Part shown: positions 8,614-12,859 of the stretch, one piece after another | How positions within the stretch are numbered: the stretch's first letter is position 1 | Layout of the letters: the number at the start of each line of letters is the position of its first letter | Assembly (NCBI GenBank): GCA_947649625.1 | Contig: CANSSJ010000001.1 | Span: 28,022 to 92,021, forward strand | Source of the DNA: an uncultured Bacillota bacterium | GTDB taxonomy: Bacteria; Bacillota; Clostridia; Oscillospirales; Oscillospiraceae | Direction of reading: 5' to 3' | DNA length: 64,000 bases | Made by a program: the position numbers and the translations under genes | Notes under the pieces: generated by a model | What the model was told of the DNA's origin: nothing | Databases searched by the model: none | What the model saw: only the letters and a program-made list of their open reading frames with translations

Positions 8614-10443
8614 TTATCCCTTTTTCTTAGAGGCCTCCCGCATCCGGGCGCTGTGGTCCAGGAGGCGCTTGCGCAGGCGGAGGTTCTCGGGGGTGCACTC
8701 CAGCAACTCGTCGTCAGCCAGGAACTCCAGACATTGCTCCAGGGAGAGGGTGCGGGGGGTGACCAGCCGCAAGGCCTCGTCGGAGCCGGAGGCCCGCATG
8801 TTGGTCAGCTGCTTCTTCTTGCACACGTTGACCGAGATATCCTCCTGCTTGGGGCACTCGCCCACGATCATGCCGCCGTAGACGGGGGTGCCCGCCCCGA
8901 TGAACAGGGAGCCCCGCTCCTGGGCGTTGAACAGGCCGTAGGTGACCGCCTCGCCCGTCTCGAAGGCCACCAGGGAACCGGTGGAGCGGCGGCTGATCTC
9001 CCCCTTCACGGGGGCGTAGCTGTCGAAGACGGAGGCCATGATGCCCTCGCCCTTGGTGTCGGTCAAAAACTCGCTGCGGTAGCCGAACAGACCACGGGCG
9101 GGGACCAGGAACTCCAATTTCGTCCGATTGCCCACGGGGTTCATGGTGACGAACTCGCCCTTCCGGGCGCCCAGCTTCTCCATGACGGCCCCCACGTAGT
9201 CTGTGGGCACATCAATCACCACCCGCTCGATGGGCTCGCACTTCTGGCCGTCCACCTCCTGGTAGAGGACGCGGGGGGGCGACACCTGGAGCTCGTACCC
9301 CTCCCGGCGCATGGTCTCGATGAGGATGGACAGGGACATCTCCCCCCGGCCGGCCACGTTGAAGGAGTCGGTGGAGTTCTCCACTTCGGACACCTTCAGG
9401 GACACGTCCTTCAGGGTCTCCCGGAACAGCCGGTCCCGGAGCTGGCGGCTGGTGACGAACTTGCCCTCCCGCCCGGCGAAGGGGGAGTCGTTCACCGAGA
9501 AGGTCATCTCAATGGTGGGGGCGGAGATCTGAACGAACTCAATGGGCTCCACCGCCTCCGGGGCGCAGACGGTGTCCCCGATGGTCACGTCGCCGATGCC
9601 GCTGAGGGCGATAATGTTGCCGGCGGCGGCCTCCTGAACGGGCACCCGGGCCAGGCCGTCGAACTCATAGAGGGCGGTGGCCTTGGCCTTTTTGGCGGGG
9701 GCGTCGGGGTCGTGGTAGTTGCACACCGCGATCTCCTGGTTCTGCTTCACGCTGCCCCGCTCGATGCGGCCGATGGCGATGCGGCCTACAAACTCGTTGT
9801 AGTCGATGGAGGACACCAGCATCTGGAAGGGGGCCTCTAAATCCACCTCGGGGGCGGGGATATAGTCGATGATGGTCTCGAAGAGGGGCTTCAGGTCGCT
9901 GCCCGCCACGTCGGGCTGGACGGAGGCGGTGCCCTGCCGGCCGGAGCAGAACAGCATGGGGGAGTCCAGCTGCTCGTCGGTGGCGTCCAGGTCCAGCAGC
10001 AGCTCCAGGCACTCGTCCACCACCTCATAAACCCGCTGGTCGGGGCGGTCGATCTTGTTCACAACCACGATGACCTTATGGCCCAGCTCCAACGCCTTGG
10101 ACAGCACGAACCGAGTCTGGGGCATGGGGCCCTCGGCGGCGTCCACCAGCAGGATGACACCGTTGACCATCTTCAGAATGCGCTCCACCTCGCCGCCGAA
10201 GTCGGCGTGGCCCGGGGTGTCCACAATATTTATTTTCACGTCGCCGTACTGAACGGCGGTGTTCTTGGCGGTGATGGTGATGCCTCGCTCCCGCTCCAGG
10301 TCGCCCGAGTCCATTACCCGGTCGGTCACCGCCTGGTTCTCCCGGTAGACGCCGGACTGCTTGAGCATCTCGTCCACCAGGGTGGTCTTGCCGTGGTCCA
10401 CGTGGGCGATGATGGCAATATTTCTTAACTTCTCATTTTTCAT
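8614..10443 (-). CDS. typA: Translational GTPase TypA/BipA
   Basis: [40 protein letters not shown]; BipA C-terminal domains. Confidence 0.97.
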
Positions 10444-10643: not shown

Positions 10644-10693
10644 TTGACATTCTAGAACGAATGTTGTATATTTGACTTAGAACAAACGTTTCT
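10644..10693 (+). promoter_or_regulatory. SOS-type promoter with two LexA/DinR-like boxes
   Basis: TTGACA(10644)-17 bp-TATATT(10667); AGAACGAATGTT inside the spacer and AGAACAAACGTTTC at 10679. Confidence 0.75.
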
Positions 10694-10781
10694 TTTCCGG
10701 CCAGGCCTCATAATAGTCCGGTTTTTTGGACATATTCTGGTCTATCCTTACCCTATCATCAGAATCACGGAGGGGACACAT

Positions 10782-11084
10782 ATGCAGACCATGTACTATA
10801 AAACATCCAACTTTATCCAACATACCGGGAACGTCATCGACCTGACCGAGCTGCGCCGCCGGCAGGCGGCGGCCGTCCAGCGGGACAGTCTGGCCCGCCG
10901 GCCCGAGGCCGTCTATGTGCCGGAGGAAGCGGAGGAGCCGGGATTCCGCCCTGTGGTGCTGACCATGTCCCGCGCCCGGCGGCGCCGGGCACGGCGGGAG
11001 CGGCGGGCCTGGACGCTGGATGCCTATGCCAGTGTGGCTGTTATTTTGATGACGGCCGCCTTCCTGCTGCAAATGGTACTGTGA
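10782..11084 (+). CDS. Small single-TM (C-terminal) protein of unknown function, predicted SOS-controlled
   Basis: 100 aa; RARRRRARRERRAW followed by LDAYASVAVILMTAAFLLQMVL; SD-like GGAGGGG upstream. Confidence 0.75.
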   Translation: MQTMYYKTSNFIQHTGNVIDLTELRRRQAAAVQRDSLARRPEAVYVPEEAEEPGFRPVVLTMSRARRRRARRERRAWTLDAYASVAVILMTAAFLLQMVL

Positions 11085-11131
11085 CCACAACATCTTGGGG
11101 GACATGCCGAAAAACCTACAATTTAGACGAA

Positions 11132-11168
11132 GAACGCCGTAAATTGCAATACGGCGCTCTTTTTTTGT
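11132..11168 (+). terminator. Intrinsic terminator
   Basis: GAACGCCGTA-AATTGCAA-TACGGCGCTC followed by TTTTTTT. Confidence 0.8.
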
Positions 11169-11211
11169 GCACTTTTTTCGCAAAAATTTTCGGACGCAGC
11201 GAAAAAAGGGG

Positions 11212-11302: not shown

Positions 11303-12859
11303 ATGGATCAAGAACAGAAACAGGATCTGAGCCTGACGGCCCGTATGCCTGTTGTGGGGAGGGAACAGCCCAAAGTAAGCGTGCCGGCCGAGGAGCCGGC
11401 CCAGCCCGCCCCCAGGCGGGACTGGCAGCGGGAGCTGGGCTCTTACGCCCGGGCGGTACGGGAGTGGAGCCGTATCCATTTCCGCCGCTGGGTCCATCTG
11501 TTTCACGGAGCCTCCGCCGGTACGCTGGCGGTGGGACCCGTCTCTTTTCTGCTGGTGGCGGGGGCCTTGGGGGCCGCACTCACCCTGACCACCCTGTATT
11601 CCACCAGCTACGCCGTCATCGTCGACGGCCAGGAGGTGGGTGTCGTGGCCGACCAGAGCGTGGTGGACCACGCCATCCAGACGGTGGAGGACCGGGGCAG
11701 CCGGTTGCTGGGCTACGACTACCAGGTGGAGGGCGATATCGACTACAGCTTCGGCCTCGTTCTGAAGAGCGACCTGAGCCGGGAGCAGGATATCAGCAGC
11801 TACTTTTACAGCCAGCTGGATGAGCTCAGCGACCAGCTGCGGGCCTACCAGGTGACGCTGGATGGCCGGGTGATCGGCACGGTAAAGGACGAGGCCGCCC
11901 TGAACTCCATGCTGAATGGGATCAAAGACGAGTTTGTCAACGAGAACACCACCGACGCCCGGTTTGTGGAGGACCTCTCTGTGTCCCCCGTGTACGCCCT
12001 GGACGATTTGACCACGGTGGACCAGGTGGAGGAGGCCCTGAAAGCCAACACCACCGGCGAGACCACCTATACCGTGGTCAAGGGGGACACCTATAACGGC
12101 ATCGCCTATGCCAACGACATGTCTCTCAGCGATCTGATGGCCCTCAACCCGGAGGCCAGCCTGAACCGGCTGATGGTGGGGGATGTGCTCAACGTGAAGG
12201 AGATCGTCCCCGCCCTGTCCGTCCAGACCACCGAGCATGTGACCTACACCGAGGCCATCCCCTGCCCGGTGGAGGAGGTCAAGGACGACAAGATGTATAA
12301 GGGCGACTCCAAGATCGTCACCAAGGGCGAGGAGGGCGAGGCCCGGGTGGAGGCGGACGTCGTCTATGTCAACGGCTATGAGAGGGAGCGCACCGTAACT
12401 GATACCACCACCCTCCGGGAGCCCACCACCACCGTAAAGGCCGTGGGCACCAAAGAGAAGCCCAAGACCGCCTCCAAGGGCAACTACATCTGGCCCGTCA
12501 GCAGCCACCGGATCAACTCCTACTTCGGCGGGCGAAAGATATTTGGCAGCTACAGCTACCACTCCGGCCTGGACATCCACGCCACCTACGGCGAGGCGGT
12601 CAAGGCAGCCGACGGCGGCACCGTCACCAAAGCCGGCTACAGCGGCAGTTACGGCAATCTGGTGGTCATTACCCACGACAACGGCACCCAGACTTATTAC
12701 GCCCACAACTCCAGCATTGTGGTCTCGGTGGGCCAGAAAGTCTACCAGGGACAGACCATCGCCAAGGCCGGCTCCACCGGCCGCTCCACCGGCGTCCACT
12801 GTCATTTCGAGGTCCGCGTCCGCGGCACTGCGGTGAACCCGCTGAATTACCTGAGATAA
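11303..12859 (+). CDS. Membrane-anchored LysM-G5-M23 metallopeptidase
   Basis: TM, LysM (TYTVVKGDTYNGIAYANDMSLSDLMALNP), G5-like domain, M23 motifs HSGLDIHA...HCHFEVRV. Confidence 0.92.
   Translation: MDQEQKQDLSLTARMPVVGREQPKVSVPAEEPAQPAPRRDWQRELGSYARAVREWSRIHFRRWVHLFHGASAGTLAVGPVSFLLVAGALGAALTLTTLYSTSYAVIVDGQEVGVVADQSVVDHAIQTVEDRGSRLLGYDYQVEGDIDYSFGLVLKSDLSREQDISSYFYSQLDELSDQLRAYQVTLDGRVIGTVKDEAALNSMLNGIKDEFVNENTTDARFVEDLSVSPVYALDDLTTVDQVEEALKANTTGETTYTVVKGDTYNGIAYANDMSLSDLMALNPEASLNRLMVGDVLNVKEIVPALSVQTTEHVTYTEAIPCPVEEVKDDKMYKGDSKIVTKGEEGEARVEADVVYVNGYERERTVTDTTTLREPTTTVKAVGTKEKPKTASKGNYIWPVSSHRINSYFGGRKIFGSYSYHSGLDIHATYGEAVKAADGGTVTKAGYSGSYGNLVVITHDNGTQTYYAHNSSIVVSVGQKVYQGQTIAKAGSTGRSTGVHCHFEVRVRGTAVNPLNYLR

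Follow-up and report, generated by a model that had tools for sequence, protein, structure and literature searches.

A tail-anchored membrane protein family of Oscillospiraceae as a possible meeting point of LexA and a DriD-like WYL activator

A small membrane protein gene behind two promoter elements

The window analyzed here is a stretch of 64,000 nucleotides from an uncultured gut member of the Oscillospiraceae (GenBank assembly GCA_947649625.1). It carries the following features around a gene for a protein of 100 amino acids.

8614 to 10443, minus strand: typA/bipA, the divergent neighbor, conserved in this position in Pseudoflavonifractor and Lawsonibacter; outside the system
10644 to 10672, plus strand: promoter P1, TTGACA-17-TATATT, matching 11 of 12 consensus positions, with a layout kept in orthologs
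10655 to 10666, plus strand: LexA box 1, GAACGAATGTTG, within the -35/-10 spacer; family consensus cGAACataTGTTGTATnnT
10680 to 10691, plus strand: LexA box 2, GAACAAACGTTT, directly past the -10, at the start site; family consensus cGAACAaanGTTc
10716 to 10748, plus strand: P2, a putative WYL-activator-dependent promoter made of a GTCC-N8-GGAC dyad (10716 to 10731), 11 nt, and TATCCT (10743 to 10748)
10782 to 11084, plus strand: small tail-anchored membrane protein, 100 amino acids, starting with ATG, with the N-terminal motif GNVIDLTELRRR, an Arg-rich stretch at residues 64 to 75, and a transmembrane (TM) helix at about residues 79 to 99
11135 to 11156, plus strand: terminator-like hairpin and T run
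11303 to 12859, plus strand: LysM-G5-M23 peptidase, the downstream neighbor, with its own promoter-like site; outside the system

The terminator-like hairpin suggests that the 100-amino-acid gene forms a monocistronic unit. An antisense open reading frame (10677 to 11183) was set aside, since relatives conserve the plus-strand protein.

Homologs of the protein were found in 28 of the 301 family genomes, the weaker ones being doubtful. A collection scan with a tighter profile, the one built from all 14 first relatives being too diverse, gave 21 named records from Intestinimonas, Pseudoflavonifractor, Lawsonibacter, and other Oscillospiraceae. The ratio pN/pS ranged from 0.40 to 0.57, indicating purifying selection and supporting that the gene is coding. 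The family shares the N-terminal motif YYxTxxFIRxxGNVVDLxEYRRKL, and its invariant residues (M1, Y5, T8, F11, G16, N17, D20, and R25) cluster near the N terminus. AlphaFold2 predicted a short helix (residues 21 to 34) and a long C-terminal helix (residues 63 to 99), with block means of 98 and 97 for residues 81 to 100; the remainder was disordered or of low confidence, and the overall pLDDT was 66. The initial annotation had described the same order of parts, in which the N-terminal motif is followed by Arg-rich residues and the TM segment comes last. Because Arg residues directly precede the TM helix, the N terminus would, by the positive-inside rule, lie in the cytoplasm. Two relatives are apparently truncated and lack the TM helix. 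The protein matched no family in Pfam, NCBIfam, or PHROGs and had no convincing sequence relative in the PDB.

A conserved pair of LexA-type boxes overlaps P1

P1 consists of a -35 hexamer TTGACA (10644 to 10649), a 17-nt spacer, and a -10 hexamer TATATT (10667 to 10672). As the initial annotation had claimed, this near-consensus promoter holds one box in its spacer and a second just past the -10. Both boxes are of the GAAC-N4-GTT type, each matching 7 of the 8 positions of a perfect GAACN4GTTC, and they overlap the promoter in the manner of Gram-positive LexA operators. One-mismatch boxes were not in excess over chance in the window (4 seen versus 7.4 expected), and a lone box is therefore no evidence. 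The tandem pattern occurred once in the 2.24-Mb assembly and in none of 60 simulated windows. Since single boxes are uninformative, the weight of the evidence lies on the pair and its conservation.

Conservation was assessed on 42 oriented promoters of relatives, comprising orthologs and divergent Oscillospiraceae from the two sets of homologs, of which a few loci may represent the same genome. The box pair was retained in 38 of the 42, with a spacing of 24 bp in 25 promoters and 25 bp in 8 (33 of the 38 with a pair). In the consensus of box 1, cGAACataTGTTGTATnnT, the -10 is fused to the box. Loss of the boxes in orthologs had been named beforehand as an observation that would speak against SOS control, and the pair came through this check.

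A scan of 101 family genomes for tandem boxes returned 21 places versus 15 for a reversed-pattern control, a count that by itself is not clearly enriched. Sixteen of the 21 places carried a GTTGTAT signature; they occurred once per genome and all preceded members of the 100-amino-acid protein family, two of which are apparently truncated. Real tandem pairs are told apart only by this signature and the downstream gene. At a separate locus, a tandem LexA-type pair was seen upstream of an unrelated protein of 88 amino acids (MSEEKVYVPVIAFFDAEG).

The same kind of operator is found at lexA itself: GAACN4GTT(T/G) was present in 19 of the 25 family lexA promoters read, mostly as GAACAAATGTTT; surface plasmon resonance work on Clostridioides difficile used lexA and recA operators with this core (PMC4234289). 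Box 2, too, closely resembles LexA operators examined in that species (PMC4234289). The lexA promoter of the genome under study has a degenerate box only, AAACATCTGTTT. Because the pair is kept in relatives and the same box stands in the lexA promoters of the family, LexA very probably controls the promoter of the 100-amino-acid gene, in strong support of the SOS assignment made from the sequence at the outset.

P2 is shared with recA and a gene for a WYL regulator

The initial account of this promoter region did not include P2, which sits between the LexA boxes and the start codon and has the general form GTCC-N8-GGAC-N11-TAnnnT. With at most one mismatch in 11 allowed, P2 was kept in 30 of the 42 relatives versus 0.15% of shuffled upstream regions; it was missing in about 12. 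Box pair and P2 occurred together in 27 of the 42, and one relative kept P2 without a LexA box.

Exact copies of P2 are present at four sites in the genome under study, namely, upstream of the 100-amino-acid gene, recA, a gene for a 40-amino-acid protein, and a gene for a regulator of the HTH-WYL-WCX type. Among the 101 family genomes, 44 carried the motif, in more than 80 places versus roughly six when the pattern was reversed. It preceded recA in six genomes and the WYL gene in six, counting in both cases this genome and five more. Other genes downstream of P2 encode members of the 100- and 40-amino-acid protein families, the helicases UvrD and AddB, short proteins that have a hydrophobic stretch, probably a TM segment (eight loci), TruA, and small XRE proteins.

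Several further observations were made on genes behind P2. The recA gene of the genome under study (contig C18) has an exact P2 and no GAACN4GTTC box, and its control here may lie with the WYL regulator instead of LexA. In some relatives P2 lies upstream of the BREX gene brxA (two loci) or of cas3 (two loci), which suggests that phage defense could be under DNA-damage or WYL control. The family of about 40 amino acids (VRGHVEVYD..GRFCFSADNEREAREEL) recurs behind P2 at nine loci, including one in the genome under study (contig C8, position 22644), and had no match in Pfam or PHROGs; at two other loci, its gene lies directly upstream of the gene for the tail-anchored membrane protein. A family of 270-amino-acid proteins with a C-terminal CxC...CxH, SWIM-like by eye, recurs behind P2 at four loci and had no match in Pfam.

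The WYL regulator resembles DriD

The regulator encoded in the genome under study has an HTH-WYL-WCX architecture (WYL, 3.7e-14; WCX, 4.4e-9), the HTH having been assigned from the sequence, as the N terminus gave no Pfam HTH match above the cutoff. When the WYL family profile was compared with solved proteins, DriD ranked first (E value, 1.4e-13), followed by PafBC (3.4e-6). P2, with at most one mismatch, lies upstream of 15 of the 26 WYL genes. Furthermore, the regulator is present in 41 of the 44 genomes with the motif versus 19 of the 57 others (Fisher's exact test, P = 2.6e-10, a value that is too small because the genomes are related to one another). The putative targets, including recA and the regulator gene itself, share an operator at a fixed distance from the -10. 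This is the geometry of DriD promoters, where a dyad lies over the -35 at a fixed distance from the -10 (PMC12340889). In the WYL domain an Arg in an RVDKM stretch is invariant, and this is suggestive, though no more than that, with respect to operator or single-stranded DNA (ssDNA) binding. Relatives of the regulator gene adjoin lexA-like genes in three genomes.

The prediction that the WYL protein binds P2 draws on two lines of evidence only, co-occurrence and the autoregulatory position. It is likely that a WYL activator controls the 100-amino-acid gene via P2. Because P2 is shared with recA and the WYL regulator, and because its presence tracks that of the regulator, DNA damage probably reaches the gene by two routes, through release from LexA and through activation by the WYL protein, and the two switches are apparently separate.

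Comparison with known systems

Searches of Pfam, NCBIfam, PHROGs, and PDB sequences detected no homology to known division inhibitors; SidA and DidA were compared through their published descriptions, and DidA is not known to be related in sequence. The closest parallel in wiring is the DidA/DriD pair of Caulobacter crescentus, in which a small membrane protein is likewise made after DNA damage via a WYL-domain activator (PMC4211646, PMC12340889) whose dyad lies over the -35 at a fixed distance from the -10 (PMC12340889). However, didA is SOS independent, whereas the gene described here also bears LexA boxes, and the dyad is CGAC-N7-GTCG in the DriD system instead of GTCC-N8-GGAC. SidA of C. 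crescentus is also a small, single-TM, SOS-regulated protein, but it has 29 residues (PMC4211646), while the present protein has some 75 residues ahead of its TM helix, among them a conserved motif.

Bacillus subtilis YneA and Mycobacterium tuberculosis ChiZ are DNA-damage-induced small single-TM proteins as well, and yneA has the same kind of GAACN4GTTC box. In both, the TM segment is followed by an extracellular LysM domain, whereas the present protein has no LysM and a C-terminal TM helix. The reversed layout agrees with the initial view that it is unlike YneA. YneA was also looked for elsewhere in this genome; among the LysM proteins listed, the two shortest open reading frames (195 and 226 amino acids) do not resemble it. 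Staphylococcus aureus SosA is another small SOS-induced membrane protein without LysM, but its activity needs a region beyond the TM segment (PMC13396833), and here almost nothing follows the helix.

On the side of the regulator, mycobacterial PafBC and SiwR likewise belong to class A of the HTH-WYL-WCX activators and turn on genes for DNA damage or genotoxic stress (PMC11804915, PMC10693628). PafBC acts as a heterodimer on a nonpalindromic -26 motif; in contrast, the dyad symmetry of the site here suggests a homodimer, and the regulator profile is nearer to DriD.

A model for the function of the protein

Judged by its sequence, the protein resembles the SidA/DidA type in being a predicted small integral membrane protein under probable DNA-damage control, although it is no member of those families. 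SOS responses commonly employ small membrane proteins to inhibit division (PMC13396833), and DriD drives didA, which encodes such an inhibitor (PMC4211646). Because circuits of this kind often end in such an inhibitor, we take a division block as the most likely outcome and lean, with some reserve, toward a tail-anchored protein of the inner membrane that is induced by DNA damage and delays division under two stacked controls.

In the model, LexA would sit on both boxes in the undamaged cell, one within the spacer of P1 and the other where transcription would start, and block P1. Upon damage, RecA-ssDNA would trigger LexA cleavage, and P1 would fire. Independently, ssDNA would activate the DriD-like HTH-WYL-WCX regulator, which would bind the dyad over the -35 of P2, recruit RNA polymerase, and turn on recA and its own gene as well. 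Both signals would thus report ssDNA via different sensors. The protein would insert via its C-terminal helix with the N terminus in the cytoplasm. We conjecture that the conserved GNVVDLxEYRRKL motif and a face of the TM helix contact part of the divisome, which might be FtsW/FtsI or a partner in the cytoplasm, and that this contact holds division until repair. Against a division inhibitor speaks the C-tail anchor with almost nothing beyond the membrane, unlike in YneA, ChiZ, and SosA.

Two other functions were weighed. The protein could be a membrane toxin of the TisB/Hok kind, which would depolarize the membrane and yield dormant, tolerant cells instead of acting on the divisome. Small size, a single TM helix, double-operator control, and a DNA-damage promoter would all fit. 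Conservation, however, is best in the motif at the cytoplasmic N terminus rather than in the TM helix alone, which suggests partner binding, and there is no known antisense RNA partner, Rfam matches in the region being subthreshold only; we consider a toxin unlikely. The conserved motif could also tether the nucleoid, a protease, or a nuclease at the membrane after damage, without blocking division. A short linear motif joined by a variable linker to a tail anchor, and the coregulation with recA via P2, would suit such a repair or proteolysis adaptor. The protein nevertheless lacks any domain for repair or proteolysis, no partner gene is linked to it, and its neighbors, typA and the M23 peptidase gene, look like housekeeping genes, which makes an adaptor improbable.

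As for the control of the gene, P2 could be the target of another regulator or of an alternative sigma factor, shared by chance with recA and the WYL gene. Its presence upstream of nonrepair genes (truA, brxA, cas3, and those for small XRE proteins) would be accounted for in this way, but the autoregulatory position at the WYL genes, the co-occurrence of motif and regulator, and the DriD-like distance from dyad to -10 make this very unlikely. Finally, lone boxes occur frequently across the window, yet chance boxes ahead of a spurious open reading frame are refuted by the conserved pair and spacing, the coding constraint, and the conserved protein motif.

Implications

The division-delay model combines parts that are individually of known kinds. 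Neither the protein family nor the two-input wiring nor WYL control of recA in Clostridia was found described in the literature searched, which consisted mostly of papers accessible without subscription. We tentatively propose, as a possibility that falls a little short of our preferred function for the protein itself, that Oscillospiraceae have a DNA-damage circuit not described before: a DriD-like WYL activator would act on recA and on its own gene via GTCC-N8-GGAC-N11-TAnnnT, and the circuit would meet LexA at the genes for the tail-anchored proteins, which would be division inhibitors of a new family.

The papers found place DNA-damage WYL activators in actinobacteria and Caulobacter. In the latter, LexA and DriD drive separate division inhibitors, whereas here one gene is apparently wired to both. 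A WYL-type operator at recA in Clostridia would carry a second damage pathway into a major group of gut bacteria, and the system offers a ready test of a division pause after DNA damage in gut anaerobes.
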